A DNA stretch of 38,163 bases from an uncultured Mycoplasmatota bacterium (lineage in GTDB: Bacteria > Bacillota_I > Bacilli_A > RF39 > UBA660). The translations under genes were made by a program, and so were the position numbers. Shown here in pieces: positions 27,451-36,467 of the stretch (positions within the stretch are counted from its first letter, which is position 1; each line of letters begins with the position of its first letter). The stretch is from contig CAMLWN010000008.1 in NCBI GenBank assembly GCA_946490195.1, forward strand, positions 1 through 38,163, written 5' to 3'. Under the pieces are notes generated by a model. The model saw nothing but the letters and a program-made list of their open reading frames with translations. It was not told the origin of the DNA and did no database searches.

Positions 27451-27479
27451 TTGACTTTTTCAAAACTTATTAATATAAT
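27451..27479 (+). promoter_or_regulatory. Promoter of NAD operon 1
   Basis: TTGACT (27451-27456), 17-base spacer, TATAAT (27474-27479). The AAAAAGTGG before the -35 and the -10 region are almost identical to the promoter of operon 2. Confidence 0.85.
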
Positions 27480-27488
27480 GTTAATAAC
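27466..27488 (+). promoter_or_regulatory. Candidate NrtR operator over the -10 (operon 1)
   Basis: CTTATTAA-TATAATG-TTAATAAC, a 23-bp imperfect dyad that contains the -10 box. A repressor bound here would block RNA polymerase. Assignment to NrtR is inferred from the linked regulator gene and recurrence of the motif. Confidence 0.7.
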
Positions 27489-27507
27489 AACTGGCCAGTT
27501 TGTTATT
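27483..27507 (+). repeat. 25-bp near-perfect inverted repeat at the predicted transcript start
   Basis: AATAACAA-CTGGCCAG-T-TTGTTATT is symmetric except for one extra T. It overlaps the predicted start site and is followed by TTTT. It can be a DNA operator or, as RNA, a 10-bp hairpin with a GGCC loop. Confidence 0.6.
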
Positions 27508-27557: not shown

Positions 27558-28181
27558 ATGAAACCCGAAGAAAAACTAAAAGCTATTGAAGCAATCAAAA
27601 ATTTTAAAACAAAAGAAAAACAACTTTTATCTATATATGAAGAAGGATACCTTGGAAAAAAAAGTTATAAAGTCACTTTAGCAAATGGCGCGACAATGCC
27701 ATGTGAACAAATTACCAAAAGAAAAGATAATGGCGATGCTGTAGTAATTATTCCTATTACAACAGAAGGAAACTATTTAGTAGTAGTTCAAGCACGTCCA
27801 AACACGTATGAAACTGTAGCTATTGAATTTCCAGCCGGTATGGTAGATAAAAATGAAAATAACGAATACGCTGCTATTCGAGAATTAGTTGAAGAAACTG
27901 GATATGTACCAACTAGTGTTTACAAATTAGAAAGTCATTATCAAGACCAAGGATGTAGCAAAGCATTAATTACAACTTATGTTGCTGAAGGATGTCAAAA
28001 AAAACAAGAACAAAAATTAGACGAAGAAGAAAACTTAACCTATATTGAAGTTAATGACCAAGATATTCGAGATTTACTTACTCGAAAAAAAGAAGATTTA
28101 CTTACCGAAATAGGAATGCATGATGCAAACTCAAAAATTGGATATATGACTTTGCAATTAAAAAGACAAAATCTATTATAA
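27558..28181 (+). CDS. NUDIX hydrolase, ADP-ribose pyrophosphatase-like
   Basis: Probably hydrolyses ADP-ribose to AMP and ribose-5-phosphate. The 207-aa protein has a perfect NUDIX box, GMVDKN-E-x7-RELVEETGY (about 94-116), preceded by the aromatic/acidic EFPAG segment typical of ADP-ribose pyrophosphatases. It is first in the NUDIX-pncA-pncB-nadE operon, under a promoter with candidate NrtR sites. In other bacteria ADP-ribose acts as an NrtR effector, so this enzyme could clear the regulatory ligand and feed ribose-5-phosphate to the linked PRPP synthetase. The exact substrate is inferred. Confidence 0.87.
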   Translation: MKPEEKLKAIEAIKNFKTKEKQLLSIYEEGYLGKKSYKVTLANGATMPCEQITKRKDNGDAVVIIPITTEGNYLVVVQARPNTYETVAIEFPAGMVDKNENNEYAAIRELVEETGYVPTSVYKLESHYQDQGCSKALITTYVAEGCQKKQEQKLDEEENLTYIEVNDQDIRDLLTRKKEDLLTEIGMHDANSKIGYMTLQLKRQNLL

Positions 28182-28233: not shown

Positions 28234-28818
28234 ATGGAAAATTTAAAAAATATAAAAGAAGCAATCTTTGTGATTGATATGAATAATGGTTTTTGTGAAA
28301 AAGGAAACCTTGCTGACCCAAGCATAAAACACATTGTTCCAAACATTAGAGAAAATATTAGAAAAACATTAAAAAATGGAGGTGCATTGTTCTTTGTAAA
28401 TGACAAACATACATCAAAGAGCGTTGAACTAACTCGTTATGCACCACATTGTGATACTGAGGAAGAACAAAAAACGATTAAAGAATTAGCAATCTTTGAA
28501 CCATACGCAACAAAAATATTTTACAAAAATTCTACATGTGCTTTATTCGCACCTGGTGTAATAGAAACAATTTTAAAAATGGAAAATATTCAAACAATTC
28601 GAATAACAGGATGCTGTACAGATATTTGTATTATGAACTTTACAGTTGCCTTAAGAAACTTTTTAGATGAAATGAACCTAAACGTCAATATAGAGGTACC
28701 AATAAACGCTGTTGAAACATTTCACATTCCAGATGTTCATGACAGAATTGAAGCAAACAACTTTGGATATCGTGTTATGGAACAAAATGGAATTCGTTTA
28801 GTAAAGGAGTTGAAATAA
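28234..28818 (+). CDS. pncA: Nicotinamidase (isochorismatase fold)
   Basis: Converts nicotinamide to nicotinate, the entry step of salvage. The 194-aa isochorismatase-fold protein shows the catalytic Asp15 in FVIDMNNGF and the nucleophile cysteine in ITGCCTDICIM (Cys127/128). Metal-ligand-like Asp57 and His59 appear in NDKHTS, His72 in APHC, and a lysine (Lys94 or Lys98) in the FEPYATKIFYK stretch. Position next to pncB supports nicotinamidase over other isochorismatase-like hydrolases. AAGGAG precedes ATG 28234. It is followed by pncB after one base. Confidence 0.9.
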   Translation: MENLKNIKEAIFVIDMNNGFCEKGNLADPSIKHIVPNIRENIRKTLKNGGALFFVNDKHTSKSVELTRYAPHCDTEEEQKTIKELAIFEPYATKIFYKNSTCALFAPGVIETILKMENIQTIRITGCCTDICIMNFTVALRNFLDEMNLNVNIEVPINAVETFHIPDVHDRIEANNFGYRVMEQNGIRLVKELK

Positions 28819-28819
28819 T

Positions 28820-30280
28820 ATGCAAGATTTAAACCTTTCCATGGCCAATGACTTTTATGAATTCACCATGAGTCAAGCTTATTTTAATGAAGGAAAAACT
28901 GAAGAAATAGCCGTATTTGATGCGTTTTTCAGAAAAAATCCATTTGATTCAGGTTATGCAATCATGGCTGGTGTAGATAAAATTATTGAAACAATAAACA
29001 ATTTTCATTTTACTGACCAAGATATTGATTTTTTAAGACAAACAAAAGCTTTTTCAGAAGATTTTTTAACCTACTTAAAAAATTTCAAATTTCATGGAAG
29101 TATCTATGCTATTCCAGACGGAACAGTCATCTTTGCAAATGAACCAATTATAACAGTTAAAGCTCCAATTATAGAAGCTCAATTAATTGAAACAATTTTA
29201 TTAAGTTATCTAAATTCACACATTTGCTGGGCAACCTCATCAAAAAGAATTACGGAAGCAGCAAAAGGCATCGGTGTTATGGAATTTGGTCTTAGAAGAG
29301 CAATGGGGCCAATTGCTGGTTTAGACGCAAGTAAATGTGCAATCATGGCTGGATGCATCGGAACTTCAAACGTTTTAAATGCCAAAGAATACAATAGCCT
29401 TCCATTAGGAACCATGGCCCATAGTTTTATTACATCTTTCGATTCAGAATATGATGCATTTTTAGCATATGCAAAAACATATCCAAATAATTGTACCCTA
29501 CTCGTTGATACATATGATGTCATAAAAAGTGGAATTCCTAATGCAATTAAAGTAGCTAAAGATTTTTTACTACCAAACGGATACACTTTAAAAGGAATCA
29601 GAATCGATTCAGGAGATTTAGCTAAATTAGCTAAAGAAGCTCGTAAAATGTTAGATGAGGCAGGTCTTACAGACACCAAAATCTGTGTTTCAAATGGACT
29701 TAAAGAAGATACTATACGTGCTTTAAAAGAGCAAAATGCTCCAATTGATTCTATAGGATTAGGCGACAACATTGTCCTACCCGACCAAGCTAGAGTTGGT
29801 GTCGTTTACAAAAATGTTGCAATAAAAAAAGAGCAAGAATACATTTCAAAAATAAAAGTAAGCAACGAAGAAGCAAAAGCAATTACTCCAGGATATAAAA
29901 AAGTATACAGGTTCTACGACAAAAAAAATGGATTAGCATTAGGAGATGTTATAGCCCTACACAATCAAAAAATTCCGGAAGATGAATTCACGCTTATTGA
30001 CCCAATCAATAATCATAATCAAACCAGAATTAAAAACTACCGCATAAGAGAACTTCAAATTCCTATTTTTATTAAAGGACATCAAGTGTATCAAGACCCA
30101 ACATTACTTCAAAAGCAAAAACTTTGTACACAAGACTTACAAACAATTCCTGATGAAGTCAAAAGATATTTAAATCCTCAACTCTACTTTGTAGACATGA
30201 CAAAAGAGCTTATTACTTTAAAAAGAGAACTAATAAAACAAGCTAAAGAACAAGGAATGAAATTAAATCGAATCAAATAA
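28820..30280 (+). CDS. pncB: Nicotinate phosphoribosyltransferase
   Basis: Forms nicotinate mononucleotide from nicotinate and PRPP, usually with ATP hydrolysis. The 486-aa protein begins with the family pattern LSMANDFYEFTMSQAYF. It has the FGLRRAMGPIAG block, the phosphorylated-histidine region GTMAHSFITSF, GIRIDSGDLAKLAKEAR and the phosphate-binding end GLGDNIV. Length fits the longer PncB2-type group. It starts one base after pncA, with the ribosome site inside pncA's end (AAGGAG). The PRPP it needs could come from the prs-type enzyme of operon 2. Confidence 0.96.
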   Translation: MQDLNLSMANDFYEFTMSQAYFNEGKTEEIAVFDAFFRKNPFDSGYAIMAGVDKIIETINNFHFTDQDIDFLRQTKAFSEDFLTYLKNFKFHGSIYAIPDGTVIFANEPIITVKAPIIEAQLIETILLSYLNSHICWATSSKRITEAAKGIGVMEFGLRRAMGPIAGLDASKCAIMAGCIGTSNVLNAKEYNSLPLGTMAHSFITSFDSEYDAFLAYAKTYPNNCTLLVDTYDVIKSGIPNAIKVAKDFLLPNGYTLKGIRIDSGDLAKLAKEARKMLDEAGLTDTKICVSNGLKEDTIRALKEQNAPIDSIGLGDNIVLPDQARVGVVYKNVAIKKEQEYISKIKVSNEEAKAITPGYKKVYRFYDKKNGLALGDVIALHNQKIPEDEFTLIDPINNHNQTRIKNYRIRELQIPIFIKGHQVYQDPTLLQKQKLCTQDLQTIPDEVKRYLNPQLYFVDMTKELITLKRELIKQAKEQGMKLNRIK

Positions 30281-30297: not shown

Positions 30298-32217
30298 ATG
30301 AACAAAAAATTTGGCTTTGTAAGAGTTGCTGCAAGCGTACCAGAAATGAAAGTCGCAAACACAACTTTTAACACAGAAGAAATACTTAAAGAAATTAAAA
30401 ATTTAGAAAAAGAAAAAGTAGATATTGCCCTCTTCCCAGAACTATCCATAACAGGATACACATGCGCAGATTTATTCTCACAAAATCTTCTTTTAGAAAA
30501 AGCTTTAGAAGGACTACAAAAAATCAAAGAAGAAACGAAAAATTATCAGATTATTTCTATTATAGGTATGCCCTTAATTTTGGATAACCAACTCTACAAC
30601 TGTGCTATACCAATTCAAAAAGGAAAAATACTAGGAATTGTTCCCAAAACTCATATTCCCAATTATAATGAATTTTATGAAAAAAGATGGTTTAGTGATG
30701 GAAAAAATATAGTAAACAAAGAAATAGAAATTTTAAACGAAACTGTCCCAATTGGAACCGACTTACTTTTTGAAGACCGAGAACAAAAAGAAATAACATT
30801 TGGTATTGAAATTTGTGAAGATTTATGGAATCCTATTTCTCCAAGCACAAAAGCATGTCAGAAAAATGCAACCATAATTTTTAATCTATCTGCAAGCAAT
30901 GAAATTATTGGAAAACAAGAATATCGTAAAAACTTAATAAAAAATGCCTCAGCAAAAAATATATGCGCGTATATTTATACCTCTGCTGGACCAAACGAAT
31001 CTTCAACCGACTTAGTTTTCTCAGGATATGCCGCTATTACTGAAAATGGAACTATCTTAAAAGAAAATGAACGTTTTAATTTTCAAACAAATCACATCAT
31101 CGAAGATATTGATGTTCAAAAACTTCAGTATACTCGTTTAAAAGCAACAAATTTTAAGAGTGATATAAAAGAAAATGATTTTAGATATATTAAAATCGAT
31201 ATTAAAAACAATAAAAATCATAGCTTAAGAAAATATTCAAAAACACCATTTGTACCATCTTCAAAAGAAAAAAGAAATTCTCGTTGTGAAGAAATTTTAA
31301 AAATACAAGCAATAGGACTAGCCAAAAGATTAAAACACACAGGTATAGAAAAATGTGTCATAGGAATAAGTGGTGGTCTAGATTCTACCCTAGCTTTTTT
31401 AGTAACTATAGAATCTTTCAAAATTCTAAATCTTCCTTTAAAAAATATTATTGGAATAACCATGCCTGGATTTGGAACCACAAAGAAAACTTTAGAAAAT
31501 TCTCAAAAATTATTAGACAACTATGGGGTTACAAAAAAAGAAATCAATATTATTGATTCTTCCCTAGTTCATTTTAAAGATATCGAATTAGATAAAAAAG
31601 ACCGAAGCGTAACCTATGAAAACACCCAAGCAAGAGAAAGAACGCAAATCTTAATGGACATAGCAAATAAAGAAAATGCCTTAGTAATAGGAACTGGTGA
31701 TCTTTCAGAACTTGCCTTAGGTTGGTGTACTTATAATGGAGACCATATGTCTATGTATTCAGTAAATTCATCTGTTCCCAAAACATTAGTGAAATATCTT
31801 GTTGAATATTTTGCAGATACTCAAAAAAACAAAATTTGCAAACAAACACTCAAAAGCATTTTAGATACACCAATTAGTCCTGAATTATTACCGCCAGATA
31901 AATCAGGAAATATAAATCAAAAAACAGAAAATATTGTTGGTCCTTATATTTTACATGATTTCTTTTTATACCACTTCTTAAGATATGGAGCTACCCCAGA
32001 AAAAATAAAATTTTTAGCTCTTCAAACTTTCAAACAAGACTTTGATGAAGAAACAATTACTCATTGGTTAAAATTTTTCTTAAAGAGATTCTTTAATCAA
32101 CAATTCAAACGAAGTTGTTTGCCAGATGGTCCAAAAGTTGGAACAATAAGCCTTTCACCACGTGGAGATTTAAGAATGCCTAGTGATGCAGATGTTAGTA
32201 TCTGGTTAAATTTCTAA
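30298..32217 (+). CDS. nadE: Glutamine-dependent NAD+ synthetase
   Basis: Amidates nicotinate adenine dinucleotide to NAD with glutamine as nitrogen donor. The 639-aa protein joins an N-terminal nitrilase-type glutaminase (Glu in FPELSITGYTC, Lys in PKTHIPNY, nucleophile Cys in GIEICEDLW near 172) to a C-terminal NAD synthase with ATP pyrophosphatase loop GISGGLDST (about 356-364), TGDLSELALGW and the C-terminal FKRSCLPDGPKVG block. All key residues are present. It is last in operon 1, 17 bases after pncB with AAAGGA upstream. I see no strong terminator after it before the next promoter. Confidence 0.96.
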   Translation: MNKKFGFVRVAASVPEMKVANTTFNTEEILKEIKNLEKEKVDIALFPELSITGYTCADLFSQNLLLEKALEGLQKIKEETKNYQIISIIGMPLILDNQLYNCAIPIQKGKILGIVPKTHIPNYNEFYEKRWFSDGKNIVNKEIEILNETVPIGTDLLFEDREQKEITFGIEICEDLWNPISPSTKACQKNATIIFNLSASNEIIGKQEYRKNLIKNASAKNICAYIYTSAGPNESSTDLVFSGYAAITENGTILKENERFNFQTNHIIEDIDVQKLQYTRLKATNFKSDIKENDFRYIKIDIKNNKNHSLRKYSKTPFVPSSKEKRNSRCEEILKIQAIGLAKRLKHTGIEKCVIGISGGLDSTLAFLVTIESFKILNLPLKNIIGITMPGFGTTKKTLENSQKLLDNYGVTKKEINIIDSSLVHFKDIELDKKDRSVTYENTQARERTQILMDIANKENALVIGTGDLSELALGWCTYNGDHMSMYSVNSSVPKTLVKYLVEYFADTQKNKICKQTLKSILDTPISPELLPPDKSGNINQKTENIVGPYILHDFFLYHFLRYGATPEKIKFLALQTFKQDFDEETITHWLKFFLKRFFNQQFKRSCLPDGPKVGTISLSPRGDLRMPSDADVSIWLNF

Positions 32218-32245: not shown

Positions 32246-32274
32246 TTGACAAACCTTTTTGTTATTAATATAAT
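32246..32274 (+). promoter_or_regulatory. Promoter of NAD operon 2
   Basis: TTGACA (32246-32251), 17-base spacer, TATAAT (32269-32274): a near-consensus housekeeping promoter, closely similar to that of operon 1. Confidence 0.9.
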
Positions 32275-32283
32275 GTTAATATC
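32261..32283 (+). promoter_or_regulatory. Candidate NrtR operator over the -10 (operon 2)
   Basis: GTTATTAA-TATAATG-TTAATATC, differing from the operon 1 site at two end positions only. Confidence 0.72.
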
Positions 32284-32307
32284 AAATATTTTTTTATTTT
32301 AACATCT

Positions 32308-32330
32308 GTTATTAATTAAATGTTAATATC
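32308..32330 (+). promoter_or_regulatory. Candidate NrtR operator in the leader of operon 2
   Basis: GTTATTAA-TTAAATG-TTAATATC, 47 bases downstream of the -10 site and 20 bases before the first gene. The two arms match those of the -10 site exactly. Confidence 0.7.
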
Positions 32331-32350
32331 AGAATGAGAGGGAGAAAAAT

Positions 32351-32785
32351 ATGGAAGTAACATTAACAATGGAACAAGTAAAACAATTTGTTCAAAAATA
32401 TTATCAAGAAATTGAAAACAAACAAGTAAAAGCACAAATTAGAAATTACAAAGGATATGTAGGATATGGAATGAGCGAACACATAGGATGTATTACAGAA
32501 ATAAAAATAAAAGGCTTTATGAATCTATTAGGAGAACAGATACCATTTGAAGAAAGAATAAGTGAAACCAAGCTACTAGAAATTTTTCAAGAATTGTTTA
32601 AAAAACAAAACATCGAAATAAAAAACTTATATATTGAGTCAGGTATTTCATCTACATATGTTGGATATGGAAAAGGAGAACATGAAGAAAAAAAAGTATA
32701 CTGTAATGGAGTAAAACTTTATCTTTCTAGACAACTAGAAAATTCCTTTAATAGAACTCGAGTTAGAAATGGAGAAAATGTATGA
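32351..32785 (+). CDS. Unknown 144-aa protein heading NAD operon 2
   Basis: I do not recognise this soluble protein. It has a motif repeated about 60 residues apart: YVGYGMSEH in the first third and YVGYGKGEH in the last third, each next to a beta-like hydrophobic segment (TEIKIKGFMNLL; IEIKNLYIESGI). That suggests an internally duplicated fold in which the YGxxEH loops may form paired binding sites. There is one cysteine after each repeat (HIGC and VYCNG). GGGAG precedes ATG 32351. It overlaps the next gene by four bases (ATGA), so it is coupled to the PRPP synthetase gene and regulated with NAD genes. Confidence 0.7.
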   Translation: MEVTLTMEQVKQFVQKYYQEIENKQVKAQIRNYKGYVGYGMSEHIGCITEIKIKGFMNLLGEQIPFEERISETKLLEIFQELFKKQNIEIKNLYIESGISSTYVGYGKGEHEEKKVYCNGVKLYLSRQLENSFNRTRVRNGENV

Positions 32786-33837
32786 CAAATTTAAAATTAA
32801 TTGTTTTAGATAATTGTAAAGAACTAGGAGAAAAAGTAGCTAAATACTTAAAAGAAGACGTCATTGTTCCTATCACAAATGACCGCTTCAGTAACGGAGA
32901 AGGAAAAATAAAAATTGAAGATTCTATCAACGGAAGTGATTTATATATTTTAAGTGATGTAGGAAACTATGGGCTAACTTACAAATTACATGGAAAAGAA
33001 CACGAAATGTCTCCTGATGAACATTTTGCAGATATTAAAAGAGTAATAGCCGCGACAAGTGGACATGCAAAAAAAATTAATGTAATCATGCCTCTACTCT
33101 ATGAATCTAGACAACATAAAAGAAAAGGAAATGAATCTCTAGATTGTGCAATTGCTTTACAAGAACTAGAAAAAATGGGAGTAAAAAATATTATCACATT
33201 TGATGCTCACGACCCAAGTATTTGTAACGCAATTCCTAGACTTCCATTTGAAAACTTCTATCCTACCCATACCATTTTAGAAAATTTGATAGAAAAAGAA
33301 AAATTACATGACCTACTAGTAATTTCTCCGGATATGGGTGCAATGGAACGAGCAAGATATTATGCTGAAATGCTAAATACGGATGTTGGTGTATTTTATA
33401 AAAGAAGAGATTTAAGTAAAGTCATAAACGGAAAAAATCCAATTATTGAACACATGTATATGGGAGCCGACCCAAAAGACAAAGACATTTTAGTAGTGGA
33501 CGATATGATTGCCAGTGGTTCTTCTATGATTGAAGTAGCCCAAAAATTAAAAGATAAAGGAGCAAAAAACATTTACCTTATTGCAACATTCGCTTTATTT
33601 ACGGAAGGAACTGAAAATTTTAAAAAAGCTTATGAACAAAAAATTTTTACCAAACTATACACAACAAACCTATCTTATATACCAAAAGAAATAGAAGAAG
33701 TTAAGTGGCTTACCAAAGTAGACGGTTCTAAATATTTAGCCAAAATTATAAAAACATTGAATAAAAATGAAAATATTGAAAATTTATGGAATGGCAAAAA
33801 AGAAATAATAAAAAAAATAAAGGAGCATCATAAATGA
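32782..33837 (+). CDS. Ribose-phosphate pyrophosphokinase (PRPP synthetase), divergent
   Basis: Makes PRPP from ribose-5-phosphate and ATP, the co-substrate of PncB. The 351-aa protein is longer than typical Prs (about 315) and divergent. It has FSNGEGKIKIEDS, the catalytic-flap-like ESRQHKRKGNESL, FDAHDPS, SPDMGAMERARYYAEML and the PRPP-binding loop ILVVDDMIASGSSM (usual form DDMIDTAGT). A lysine-rich C-terminal tail of about 35 residues is extra. ATGA overlaps join it to both neighbours. The NAD context suggests a dedicated PRPP supply; whether a housekeeping prs exists elsewhere cannot be seen here. Confidence 0.83.
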   Translation: MTNLKLIVLDNCKELGEKVAKYLKEDVIVPITNDRFSNGEGKIKIEDSINGSDLYILSDVGNYGLTYKLHGKEHEMSPDEHFADIKRVIAATSGHAKKINVIMPLLYESRQHKRKGNESLDCAIALQELEKMGVKNIITFDAHDPSICNAIPRLPFENFYPTHTILENLIEKEKLHDLLVISPDMGAMERARYYAEMLNTDVGVFYKRRDLSKVINGKNPIIEHMYMGADPKDKDILVVDDMIASGSSMIEVAQKLKDKGAKNIYLIATFALFTEGTENFKKAYEQKIFTKLYTTNLSYIPKEIEEVKWLTKVDGSKYLAKIIKTLNKNENIENLWNGKKEIIKKIKEHHK

Positions 33838-34544
33838 AAAATTTACAAATAGTAACACCTAGTCAAAAATGTATATTTGATTGCCCCTATTGTATTGCAA
33901 AATCACATAGTCATCAAAATACTTTTCAAGATATTTACCATCAAAATAATACACTGTGGAAAAACAATTTAAGAGAAGTTCTAAAAAAAGATATCACTAT
34001 AAAAAATATAATTATTACTGGAACAAATGAGCCCATGCAATCAAAAGACTGCATTAAAGATATAATTGAAATAGCAAAAAAAGAAAGACCCGATATCACA
34101 TTAGAAATTCAGACGCGTATGTATAAACCAGATGACTTATTAAATAAATTAGACATTGTAGCATACAGTATAGATAATTATCATTTATTAAATAAAATTA
34201 AAGCGCAAGGAAAAATCAGTAGGTATGTAATACTTTTAACAGACAGTTTTAACGAAAAAACATTACATAACATTTTAGAAAAACTGCCCAAAAAAGTAAC
34301 ACAATTAACTTTCAAAGTACTTCAAACAAGCCATGGAATAAATAAAAAAATGGATGTATGGATTGATACTCATAAAATAAATTCTCAAACCATAGAAAAA
34401 TTAAAAACAGATATTAAAAACTATAAAGGCCCTATAAGTATCTTCTTTGACCAAAATTGTATGGACAGTACAGATAGATATAAAATCTTTAGAGAAGACG
34501 GTTTACTTTATAAAGATTGGGAAGATACAAAAGGATTCTTATGA
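33834..34544 (+). CDS. Radical SAM protein of unknown function in the NAD operon
   Basis: A small (236 aa) radical SAM enzyme. The CxxxCxxC cluster motif is Cys13, Cys17 and Cys20 in KCIFDCPYCIAK, binding a [4Fe-4S] cluster that cleaves SAM. IIITGTNEPMQS fits the SAM-amine-binding 'GGEP' position, with Asn-Glu-Pro. No SPASM or B12 domain and no second cysteine cluster is present; one further Cys lies near the C-terminus (FFDQNCMD). Short length resembles activases and QueE-type enzymes. ATGA overlaps with the PRPP synthetase and nadD genes show tight coupling. No known NAD salvage step needs a radical SAM enzyme, so its role is open. Confidence 0.82.
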   Translation: MKNLQIVTPSQKCIFDCPYCIAKSHSHQNTFQDIYHQNNTLWKNNLREVLKKDITIKNIIITGTNEPMQSKDCIKDIIEIAKKERPDITLEIQTRMYKPDDLLNKLDIVAYSIDNYHLLNKIKAQGKISRYVILLTDSFNEKTLHNILEKLPKKVTQLTFKVLQTSHGINKKMDVWIDTHKINSQTIEKLKTDIKNYKGPISIFFDQNCMDSTDRYKIFREDGLLYKDWEDTKGFL

Positions 34545-35113
34545 AAATAGGAGTATTTGGTGGAAGTTTCAATCCAATTCATAACATGCACCTTGAAATT
34601 GCTGAAAGCTTACTTAGAAAAAAATACGTAGATAAAATCATTTTTGTGCCAACTGGTGATCATTATTCATACAAAACTCATATGATTTCGGGAAAAAGTC
34701 GTTTAGAAATGATAAAACTAGCCATAAAAGAAGCTCCAAATTTATCCGTAAGCAACTTTGAACTAAAAGAAAAAATGATTTATACTTATGAAACTCTAAA
34801 TCATTTTAAAAATATCTACCCTACTGACCAAATTTATTTCATATGTGGAACGGATAACTTAAATTATTCAAACACTTGGAAACATCCTGAAGAAATACAA
34901 AAATTTCCTATCCTTGTAATCGAACGTAATAATGAAAAAATAAATTCAAAATTTTTAAATCAAAAGAATATTACCTGTATCCCTATCAAAACCTCTGCTC
35001 TTTCATCTAGTTTAATTCGAGAAAAAATTGAAAATGGAGAAGAAATTACAGGTTTGGTTCCAAAAAAAGTTCAAGAATACATTCAAGAGAAAAAATTATA
35101 TAGAAAGGATTAA
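34541..35113 (+). CDS. nadD: Nicotinate-nucleotide adenylyltransferase
   Basis: Adenylates NaMN to NaAD. The 190-aa protein has the nucleotidyltransferase motif GGSFNPIHNMH (His14, His17; most NadD have HNGH, here HNMH), the ISGKSRLEMIKLAI segment, FICGTDNL and the C-terminal ALSSSLIREKI (the ISSTxIR motif). I placed the start at ATG 34541, overlapping the radical SAM stop by ATGA; an ORF start at 34517 lies inside the upstream gene and lacks support. It is followed after three bases by pncC. Identification is firm. Confidence 0.95.
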   Translation: MKIGVFGGSFNPIHNMHLEIAESLLRKKYVDKIIFVPTGDHYSYKTHMISGKSRLEMIKLAIKEAPNLSVSNFELKEKMIYTYETLNHFKNIYPTDQIYFICGTDNLNYSNTWKHPEEIQKFPILVIERNNEKINSKFLNQKNITCIPIKTSALSSSLIREKIENGEEITGLVPKKVQEYIQEKKLYRKD

Positions 35114-35116
35114 AAA

Positions 35117-35590
35117 ATGTACAAAGAAATTATTGAAAAATTAAAACAAAAAAAATTAACTATTGCAACTATGGAATCCTGCACAGGAGGCGCTATTGTA
35201 AATGAAATCACAAACATTGAAGGTGCCAGTGAAGTACTTCTTTACAGTGCCGTCACTTATAGTAACGAATACAAAATAAAAATGGGTGTAAATAGAAACA
35301 CTATTGAAAAATACTCCGTATATAGTATAGAAACAGCTCGAGAAATGGCAAAAAATATAAAAAAATTTAGTCATGCAGATATTGGCATCGGAATAACGGG
35401 AAAACTAAAAAGAAAAGATAAAAATAATTCTTTTGGTCAAGATAATCAAGTTTTTATAAATATTCTCTATCATAATAAATCTTACGATTACACTTTTACA
35501 GTAACGAAAAAAACAAGAACATCAAACAAAAAAGCTCTAATAAATTTCATCGGAGAACAATTAATAACTTTACTAGAAAAATGTGAATGA
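35117..35590 (+). CDS. pncC: CinA C-terminal/PncC-like nicotinamide-nucleotide amidase
   Basis: Probably deamidates NMN to NaMN, returning a by-product of DNA ligation to the salvage route. The 157-aa protein matches the stand-alone CinA_C domain: LTIATMESCTGG with the likely nucleophile Ser21, ITNIEGASEVLLYSAVTYSN and KIKMGV, then ADIGIGITG. It departs from the family after that: the usual TGIAGP loop is replaced by TGKLKRKDKNN, a lysine-rich stretch. This may alter substrate binding, so activity is not assured. It is the fifth gene of operon 2. The start follows AAAGGA. Confidence 0.82.
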   Translation: MYKEIIEKLKQKKLTIATMESCTGGAIVNEITNIEGASEVLLYSAVTYSNEYKIKMGVNRNTIEKYSVYSIETAREMAKNIKKFSHADIGIGITGKLKRKDKNNSFGQDNQVFINILYHNKSYDYTFTVTKKTRTSNKKALINFIGEQLITLLEKCE

Positions 35591-35639: not shown

Positions 35640-36467
35640 ATGCAAAAATATAAAACAGAAGAAGAATTCTTACAAGCATATAATCCAAAAGAATTCGACC
35701 AACTATCTATGACTGCTGATATTTTACTAATAAGCGTTTCAGACCAAGAGCAGGCAAACTATCGAAAAACAAGTAAAAAAATGATGAGTATTTTACTTGT
35801 AAAAAGAGAGGATTATCCATACAAAGATAAATGGTGTCTTCCTGGTGGTTTTTTAGACCCCAATACCGAAACTTTAGAAGAATGTGCAAAAAGAGTATTA
35901 AAAAAAGAAACCAATCTTTCAAATATTTTTCTTGAACAACTATATACTTTTGACGCAGTAAAAAGAGATCCTAGAACTAGAGTTGTTTCAACTGCATATA
36001 TGGCTTTAGTAGACAAAAAAAGATTAACAGACAAAATTAATCCAAATGCAAGCTGGTTTGATATCATTTTAATAGAAGAAAAAAACAATATAATAGAACT
36101 AACTCTAACAAATAATGAAACAACTATCAATTTCAGTATCAAAAAAACATTAAAAGAAAAAACAACAGATCGTTATACTTTCAAAACTCAAAAAAATAAA
36201 GATATTGCCTTTGACCATGATATTGTCATTCTTTCTGGTTTAGAAAGATTAAAAAATAAAATCAGTTATACAGATATTGTATTTAATATGATGCCAAAAT
36301 ATTTTACACTAGGCGAGCTTCAACAAGTCTATGAAGTTATATTAAACAAAAAACTCCTAGATCCAGCTTTTAGAAGAATAATCGCAAATAAAGTTGAAAA
36401 AACCGATTTAGTACAAACCGGAGCAGGCCATAGACCTTCAGCATTATTTAAGTATAAAATGAAGTAA
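35640..36467 (+). CDS. nrtR: NrtR-type NUDIX-related regulator of NAD metabolism
   Basis: A 275-aa transcriptional regulator. The N-terminal NUDIX-like domain (about 20-150) has LVKREDYPYKDKWCLPGGF and a decayed NUDIX box: GFLDPNTE-x7-KRVLKKETNL, where RE and EE of the catalytic signature have become RV and KE. It therefore probably senses a ligand rather than hydrolysing it. The C-terminal winged helix is characteristic of NrtR: ILSGLERLKNKISYTDIVFN, then MMPKYFTLGELQQVYEVIL and DPAFRRIIANKVE. The start is ATG 35640 behind GAGGTG; the GTG at 35631 is part of that site. It ends the NAD operon it is thought to control. Confidence 0.88.
   Translation: MQKYKTEEEFLQAYNPKEFDQLSMTADILLISVSDQEQANYRKTSKKMMSILLVKREDYPYKDKWCLPGGFLDPNTETLEECAKRVLKKETNLSNIFLEQLYTFDAVKRDPRTRVVSTAYMALVDKKRLTDKINPNASWFDIILIEEKNNIIELTLTNNETTINFSIKKTLKEKTTDRYTFKTQKNKDIAFDHDIVILSGLERLKNKISYTDIVFNMMPKYFTLGELQQVYEVILNKKLLDPAFRRIIANKVEKTDLVQTGAGHRPSALFKYKMK

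Follow-up and report, generated by a model that had tools for sequence, protein, structure and literature searches.

The window analysed here, 38,163 nucleotides of a contig from an uncultured Mycoplasmatota bacterium, carries a gene for a radical SAM protein (hereafter rSAM) in the midst of genes for NAD salvage, which raises the question of what such an enzyme does there. To our knowledge, no characterised step of NAD biosynthesis or salvage uses radical SAM chemistry. A literature search, with subscription journals mostly outside its coverage, found no paper connecting NrtR or NAD salvage to radical SAM enzymes in the way described here. Below, L numbers denote loci and G numbers genomes.

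Genomic context and sequence of the radical SAM gene

The gene was found in a cluster with the order NUDIX hydrolase, pncA, pncB, nadE, a small ORF, prs, rSAM, nadD, pncC, and nrtR (Table 1). The ORF translation gave a protein of 236 amino acids with cysteines at residues 13, 17, and 20. Its start codon overlapped the prs stop codon (ATGA, 33834-33837), and its stop codon overlapped the nadD start codon in the same manner (ATGA, 34541-34544). The ORF and junction sequences thus bore out the preliminary description of this DNA, in which a 236-aa protein was reported with CxxxCxxC at residues 13-20 and with ATGA overlaps between its gene and both neighbours; its placement of the gene in an NAD salvage operon was likewise confirmed by the cluster of NAD genes ending in nrtR. 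Since the reading frame was kept in 17 further bacterial loci (46-57% identity) and dN/dS values of 0.11-0.31 pointed to purifying selection, rSAM is a genuine coding sequence, not a chance ORF.

A single [4Fe-4S] cluster motif was present in the window protein, which contained no SPASM or auxiliary-cluster domain or cysteines. In the alignment of bacterial and phage members, the three cysteines, Thr62, Gly63, Pro67, Arg130, and Lys161 were among the invariant residues, as were Asp206, Cys209, Arg215, Tyr216, Phe219, Arg220, Gly223, and Tyr226. The positions of the C-terminal signature (residues 206-226) were invariant in this alignment except for Asp222, which was Asn in some members.

Three near-identical NrtR-like boxes of the form GTTATTAATWWAATGTTAATATCA were identified in the window (27466, 32261, and 32308), preceding both half-operons of the cluster; none were expected from shuffled sequences. 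A box within two mismatches was also found upstream of the operon in L006, L007, L008, L020, L022, L028, L029, L032, L033, and L034. In L032, it was situated directly upstream of rSAM, there the first gene, and in L022 it preceded a short operon consisting of the small ORF (as at 32351), rSAM, and nrtR. The nrtR gene was present in the window cluster and in most related loci, several other loci being cut by contig ends. Control of the rSAM operon by NrtR, as proposed earlier, is supported by these candidate boxes, one of which lies over a perfect promoter.

The small family-less protein recurred in NrtR operons with and without rSAM (window, 32351-32785; L006, 4678-5082; L022, 7595-7996).

Table 1. 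Features of the NAD salvage cluster and of the radical SAM gene in the window.
Feature	Position	Strand	Evidence and remarks
NrtR-like box upstream of first NAD gene	27466..27489	+	2 mismatches to GTTATTAATWWAATGTTAATATCA; overlaps promoter-like TTGACT-17-TATAAT
NUDIX hydrolase	27558..28181	+	PF00293; same place in relatives
Nicotinamidase-like PncA	28234..28818	+	PF00857 isochorismatase; PRK11609 weak
Nicotinate phosphoribosyltransferase PncB	28820..30280	+	NF006695, 586 bits, above cut-off
Glutamine-dependent NAD synthetase NadE	30298..32217	+	NF002730, 897 bits
Promoter TTGACA-17-TATAAT of second half-operon	32246..32274	+	12/12 consensus matches, sigma-70-type
NrtR-like box over -10	32261..32284	+	Box search; same box upstream of relatives' operons
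Second NrtR-like box	32308..32331	+	Box search
Small protein	32351..32785	+	No Pfam or NCBIfam family; homologues in L006, L022, L060
PRPP synthetase (prs)	32782..33837	+	NF005299, 451 bits (cut-off 327)
Radical SAM protein (main finding)	33834..34544	+	PF04055 Radical_SAM, 34.7 bits (cut-off 29.5); conserved family; model pLDDT 87.8, pTM 0.85
CxxxCxxC cluster-binding motif, residues 13-20	33870..33893	+	Invariant in 20/20 aligned members, phage included
TGTNEP, residues 62-67, GGEP-like SAM-binding motif	34017..34034	+	Conserved in alignment
Family signature D-x2-C-x5-RY-x2-FR-x-[DN]G-x2-Y, residues 206-226	34449..34511	+	Bacteria and phage
Nicotinate-nucleotide adenylyltransferase NadD	34541..35113	+	TIGR00482, 166 bits (cut-off 112)
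PncC / CinA-type NMN deamidase	35117..35590	+	PF02464, 104 bits; TIGR00199 above cut-off
NrtR-type regulator (NUDIX and winged helix)	35640..36467	+	NrtR_WHD PF21906, 58 bits; PF00293

Distribution and neighbourhoods in bacteria and phages

Close-sequence scans with the window protein alone returned nothing from genome contigs, viral contigs, phages, or plasmids, and family members were recovered only by whole-genome searches and alignments. rSAM was detected in 4 of 37 genomes of the genus and in 10 of 386 genomes (8 of 150 genera) of the GTDB family. An alignment-based scan of named genomes yielded 17 loci, all from metagenome-assembled genomes, labelled as Bacilli, Bacillales, Erysipelotrichaceae, Clostridia/Clostridium, Tenericutes, Firmicutes, or Candidatus Ventrenecus. 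With the window, these made up 18 independent bacterial loci (L002-L004 and L010-L019 were mostly from the same genomes and were counted once). A match in genome G374 (L040) was rejected as a family member, as it looked like a TatD-linked-type radical SAM protein beside unrelated genes.

Sixteen of the 18 loci were situated amid NAD biosynthesis genes, one (L022) was beside nrtR alone, and one (L025) stood alone on a 5.6-kb contig with neither NAD genes nor a box. The tight coupling to prs and nadD that had been described held for the window, with its ATGA overlaps, but not for the relatives, in which rSAM was flanked instead by nadE, nadK, pncA, nrtR, or an ADP-ribosylglycohydrolase gene. All four rSAM-positive genomes of the genus were among the seven of its 37 genomes with NrtR (hypergeometric 35/66045, calculated by hand), and the eight rSAM-positive genomes common to both family samples (386 and 338 genomes) were all NrtR-positive, vs. 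103 of 338 overall; both counts ignore shared ancestry. Moreover, rSAM distances tracked those of NrtR, PncB, NadD, PncC, and NadK (Mantel r 0.69-0.84, p ≤ 0.0012).

Most NrtR-positive genomes of the family had no rSAM. A near-identical operon without the gene was found in L060 (genome G034 of the same genus; NrtR 89% identical, prs-nadD gap of about 17 bases), and genome G024 likewise had none. rSAM is therefore an accessory function and not a missing step, and its assignment as an obligatory or missing step of the NAD pathway was rejected on account of L060. The activation of a fixed neighbour, suggested in the preliminary description, is unlikely for the same reason. The idea that rSAM has a fixed partner (prs, nadD, or the small ORF at 32351) was also rejected, since its neighbours differ from locus to locus and the last of these candidates is also present in operons that have no rSAM. 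One copy (L035, 8001-8701) was broken by a frameshift, and the surrounding NAD operon looked intact.

Distant homologues (28-37% identity) were found in three phage types, and in two of the three rSAM was located in an NAD salvage cluster. In the phage represented by L038 and L041, the cluster comprised pncB, an NMN adenylyltransferase-like gene, pncA, Thg1, rSAM, nadE, and pncC; a gene for a major head protein was located upstream of it. On the 333-kb contig of L042, it comprised rSAM, Thg1, NADAR, nadE, pncC, NUDIX, pncB, pncA, and an adenylyltransferase gene. Thg1 adjoined rSAM in both of these phages. In the third type (L037/L039), neither pncB nor nadE was present anywhere on the contigs, which measure 53 and 128 kb and are possibly fragments. 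When the phage proteins were used as tblastn queries against the phage collection, no match was significant, and further viral scans revealed no additional phage type.

The gene content of L038 (4519-10230) and L042 (9986-19485) corresponded to phage NAD salvage by the deamidated route (pncA, pncB, nadE, and pncC). The restoration of NAD by phages against defence is known (PMC12774641). Radical SAM enzymes are unmentioned in a survey of NAD and ADP-ribose systems in viruses (PMC9503650), in which no word starts with 'radical'.

The 16 bacterial loci among NAD biosynthesis genes and the two phage clusters agree with the earlier claim of a tie to NAD metabolism, and a functional link of rSAM to this metabolism is well supported. 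Homologues were not mostly outside NAD operons, and no curated family with another substrate was reached.

A set of 35 NrtR loci from the same family without the window-type rSAM was used for comparison. Unexpectedly, radical SAM genes of other, unrelated kinds were present in related NAD operons, in the position of rSAM or close to it. In L114 (3960-4670, minus strand, 236 aa) and L126 (8473-9258, plus strand, 261 aa), other radical SAM proteins were encoded exactly between prs and nadD; they had no BLAST match to the window protein, and their ends contained a [DN]G stretch followed by Trp, faintly like the end of the window protein (FREDGLLYKDW). In L143, a radical SAM gene was situated between nadD and pncC. 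Genes for RlmN-like radical SAM proteins lay between pncB and nadE in L144 (6045) and, beside the window-type rSAM family, in L006 (7188-8126; 112 bits vs. the RlmN cut-off of 290). MiaB-like radical SAM proteins were encoded in the NAD operons of L118 (2948-4024; TIGR00089, 81 bits vs. the cut-off of 251) and L140 (2903-3934), and a HemN/HutW-like one directly after nadD in L122 (5766-7115). Three consecutive ORFs with CxxxCxxC (2548, 3219, and 4142; 224, 308, and 361 aa) were found directly upstream of pncA in L132.

A further cassette, found in L115 (3357-6365), L124 (1765-4742), and L133 (2334-5360), consisted of a gene for a PnuC-like transporter, a NadR-like or NMNAT gene, a gene for a protein of 124-128 aa with a Ser/Gly/Cys-rich tail, and, following it, a gene for a radical SAM protein of about 300 aa. 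The arrangement resembles a pair for peptide maturation with a link to the uptake of NAD. When accessory ORFs of 150 aa or more were compared, CxxxCxxC was present in 10 of 49 within operons and in 5 of 123 in flanking DNA (Fisher p 0.0015). This was a count of motifs in a modest sample and not a complete annotation; of the five ORFs in the flanks, at least three (L132) were directly upstream of pncA.

Genes for other accessory proteins were also identified. ADP-ribosylglycohydrolase genes recurred in NrtR operons (L012, 629-1489, minus strand; L115, L120, L134, L135, and L139). Pfam-less proteins of 188 and 198 aa, ADP-ribosyltransferase-like by eye, were encoded beside pncC in L114 (2781-3347, minus strand) and L118 (8299-8895, plus strand). 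Proteins of 650-674 aa adjoined pncC in L021 (1945-3918), L143 (7884-9908), and L144 (2200-4152, minus strand), with a methyltransferase domain in L143.

Curated families and predicted fold

No curated family was reached by the window protein, whose best scores were about 20 bits against cut-offs of at least 130. It scored 22.5 bits in the prokaryotic viperin model NF038283 (cut-off 180), 17.5 bits in the pVip model of PADLOC, 16.6 bits in the TatD-linked radical SAM model TIGR04038 (cut-off 129.7), and 19.9 bits in the NrdG-type activase model TIGR02495 (cut-off 131), and no partner glycyl-radical enzyme was recognised in the window operon. A PDB sequence search gave no weighty radical SAM relative, and the PHROG and PADLOC searches gave weak generic matches and nothing more. 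Filing the protein as a prokaryotic viperin was rejected on the curated score. Another radical SAM protein of the same genome (G000:C40:6428-6925, minus strand, open frame of 238 aa) reached 50 bits in the viperin model, which thus responds to unrelated small radical SAM proteins.

Viperins are radical SAM nucleotide dehydratases. AlphaFold2 models were obtained for the window protein (pLDDT 87.8, pTM 0.85) and for a phage protein (pLDDT 86.4, pTM 0.84); these are separate models and not fully independent, since their input alignments have most rows in common. Both were predicted to form a radical SAM barrel, and the leading PDB matches were radical SAM enzymes, with a viperin as the best Foldseek match in both cases. 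PDB entries were ranked by Z-score in a second look (VIA). For the phage model, the top 11 entries were viperins (Z 12.5-13.7), ahead of MoaA (11.5). With the window model, viperins took the first ten places (Z 14.4-15.1, rmsd 3.1-3.3, 210-214 aligned residues), SuiB came next (14.0), and MoaA had a lower rank (12.0). The lead of viperins over other enzymes was no more than about 1 Z in either case; by the rule of the ranking tool, viperin and SuiB are tied for the window model.

In the profile comparison, viperin (61%, E 8e-5) ranked above MoaA (17%) and anSME (8%), these alignments covering the N-terminal part only; the C-terminal halves gave no significant alignment with viperin (E 0.24). 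Lys161, Tyr216, and Gly223 fell on residues invariant in five prokaryotic viperins, in a global alignment only, the local C-terminal match being insignificant. The tyrosine aligned to Tyr216 is presumably the donor residue of viperin. In the mechanism proposed for viperin, a conserved tyrosine would donate a proton and an electron (PMC9642334). Taken as predictions, the models suggest that rSAM is built on the viperin plan.

Possible function and comparison with known systems

Tentatively, and with a little less than even confidence, we regard rSAM as an accessory, NrtR-controlled, viperin-like enzyme that would abstract hydrogen from a nucleotide of the NAD pool and give rise to a modified nucleotide. 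It is probably an active enzyme with a radical reaction, in which Lys161, Tyr216, and Cys209 may have roles. A nucleotide substrate is inferred because of the viperin-like predicted fold and the conserved basic residues; by their sequence conservation, Arg130, Lys161, Arg215, and Arg220 would suit a phosphate-bearing substrate. Most likely, the 5'-deoxyadenosyl radical would take hydrogen from the ribose or the base of a phosphorylated nucleotide, for which nicotinate or nicotinamide mononucleotide, NaAD, NAD, ADP-ribose, and PRPP are candidates. A non-standard nucleotide would be made, repaired, or salvaged (the direction is a guess), at times when NrtR senses NAD turnover.

An alternative use of the same predicted fold is conflict between phage and host, in which an altered nucleotide would be made against the competitor or removed, with NAD depletion and restoration as part of the same conflict. 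The NADAR and Thg1 genes that accompany the phage copies, the ADP-ribosylglycohydrolases among the bacterial neighbours, and the patchy distribution of rSAM would fit this reading, as would the known phage NAD restoration against defence (PMC12774641). It is nevertheless unlikely, as the pVip models of PADLOC and NCBIfam matched weakly and rSAM is tied to, and co-diverges with, housekeeping salvage genes and NrtR, not a defence island.

rSAM might also modify a protein or peptide, either by activating a glycyl-radical enzyme or by maturing a small protein of the operon. Its small size and single cluster resemble PflA and NrdG (an NrdG2 model was matched weakly by 11 of 12 members), SuiB was close in fold rank for the window model, and in related NAD operons another radical SAM gene is paired with the Ser/Gly/Cys-tailed protein of 124-128 aa. 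This reading is rather improbable, however. The flanking genes differ between loci, so that rSAM has no constant neighbour, some operons encode the small protein of 32351-32785 but not rSAM, no partner of this kind was apparent next to the phage copies, and the SPASM and auxiliary-cluster cysteines are absent.

Still less probable is a role in RNA modification or repair within an NAD-needing system, comparable to NAD-dependent RNA end repair. Although Thg1 adjoins rSAM in both NAD-bearing phages, and RlmN-like and MiaB-like radical SAM genes as well as ADP-ribosyltransferase-like ORFs occur in related NAD operons, the seed search recognised no Thg1 beside the bacterial copies, the 236-aa protein is without an RNA-binding domain, and QueE and RlmN ranked below viperin in the fold comparison.

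It is very improbable that rSAM is a hitch-hiker without a mechanistic tie to NAD in NrtR operons that gather accessory genes: unrelated radical SAM genes of several kinds do occur in these operons, as do other uncharacterised genes, and most NrtR-positive genomes are without rSAM, but the NAD linkage persists in phages at 28-37% identity, rSAM co-diverges with the NAD genes, and the same box precedes the L022 operon, where other NAD genes are absent.

The enzyme preferred here, a viperin-like protein acting on an NAD-pool nucleotide, belongs to a family that is tied to NAD operons and has a nucleotide-enzyme-like predicted fold, and is thus a concrete candidate for purification and assay. If its substrate is such a nucleotide, central cofactor metabolism would include an extra reaction, which might bear on the competition of phage and host over NAD. 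A wider idea, which we consider doubtful, is that NAD metabolism has a radical SAM branch, in which the viperin-like enzyme of gut bacteria and large phages modifies or rescues an NAD-pool nucleotide and other radical SAM families entered the same operons independently, with related chemistry.

Among known systems, NrtR-regulated NAD salvage operons contain the same set of pncA, pncB, nadE, prs, nadD, pncC, nadK, and nrtR; the radical SAM member is the difference from those in the literature searched. The closest known radical SAM families include TIGR04038, an NCBIfam model matched by 12 of 12 members (best E 4.8e-8), and TIGR04100. QueE and queuine lyase are small radical SAM enzymes of base metabolism; a PHROG QueE-like model matched 6 of 12 members weakly, and queuine lyase was a Foldseek match to the model, but their fold scores were lower and their family cut-offs were not reached. 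MoaA (GTP 3',8-cyclase) is also a radical SAM enzyme acting on a nucleotide and took the next fold rank for the phage model, but it has a C-terminal second cluster that is absent from rSAM, and its profile match was lower. The viperins (SAND, including prokaryotic ones) share the CxxxCxxC motif and the compact barrel without SPASM, and were the best structural match of the two models. In contrast to them, rSAM shows 13-16% identity in the structural alignments, is shorter at the C-terminus, has its own signature D-x2-C-x5-RY-x2-FR, and is found in an NAD operon and not in a defence context. We regard rSAM as a new subfamily within the known radical SAM superfamily, in a metabolic context where such an enzyme was not expected.
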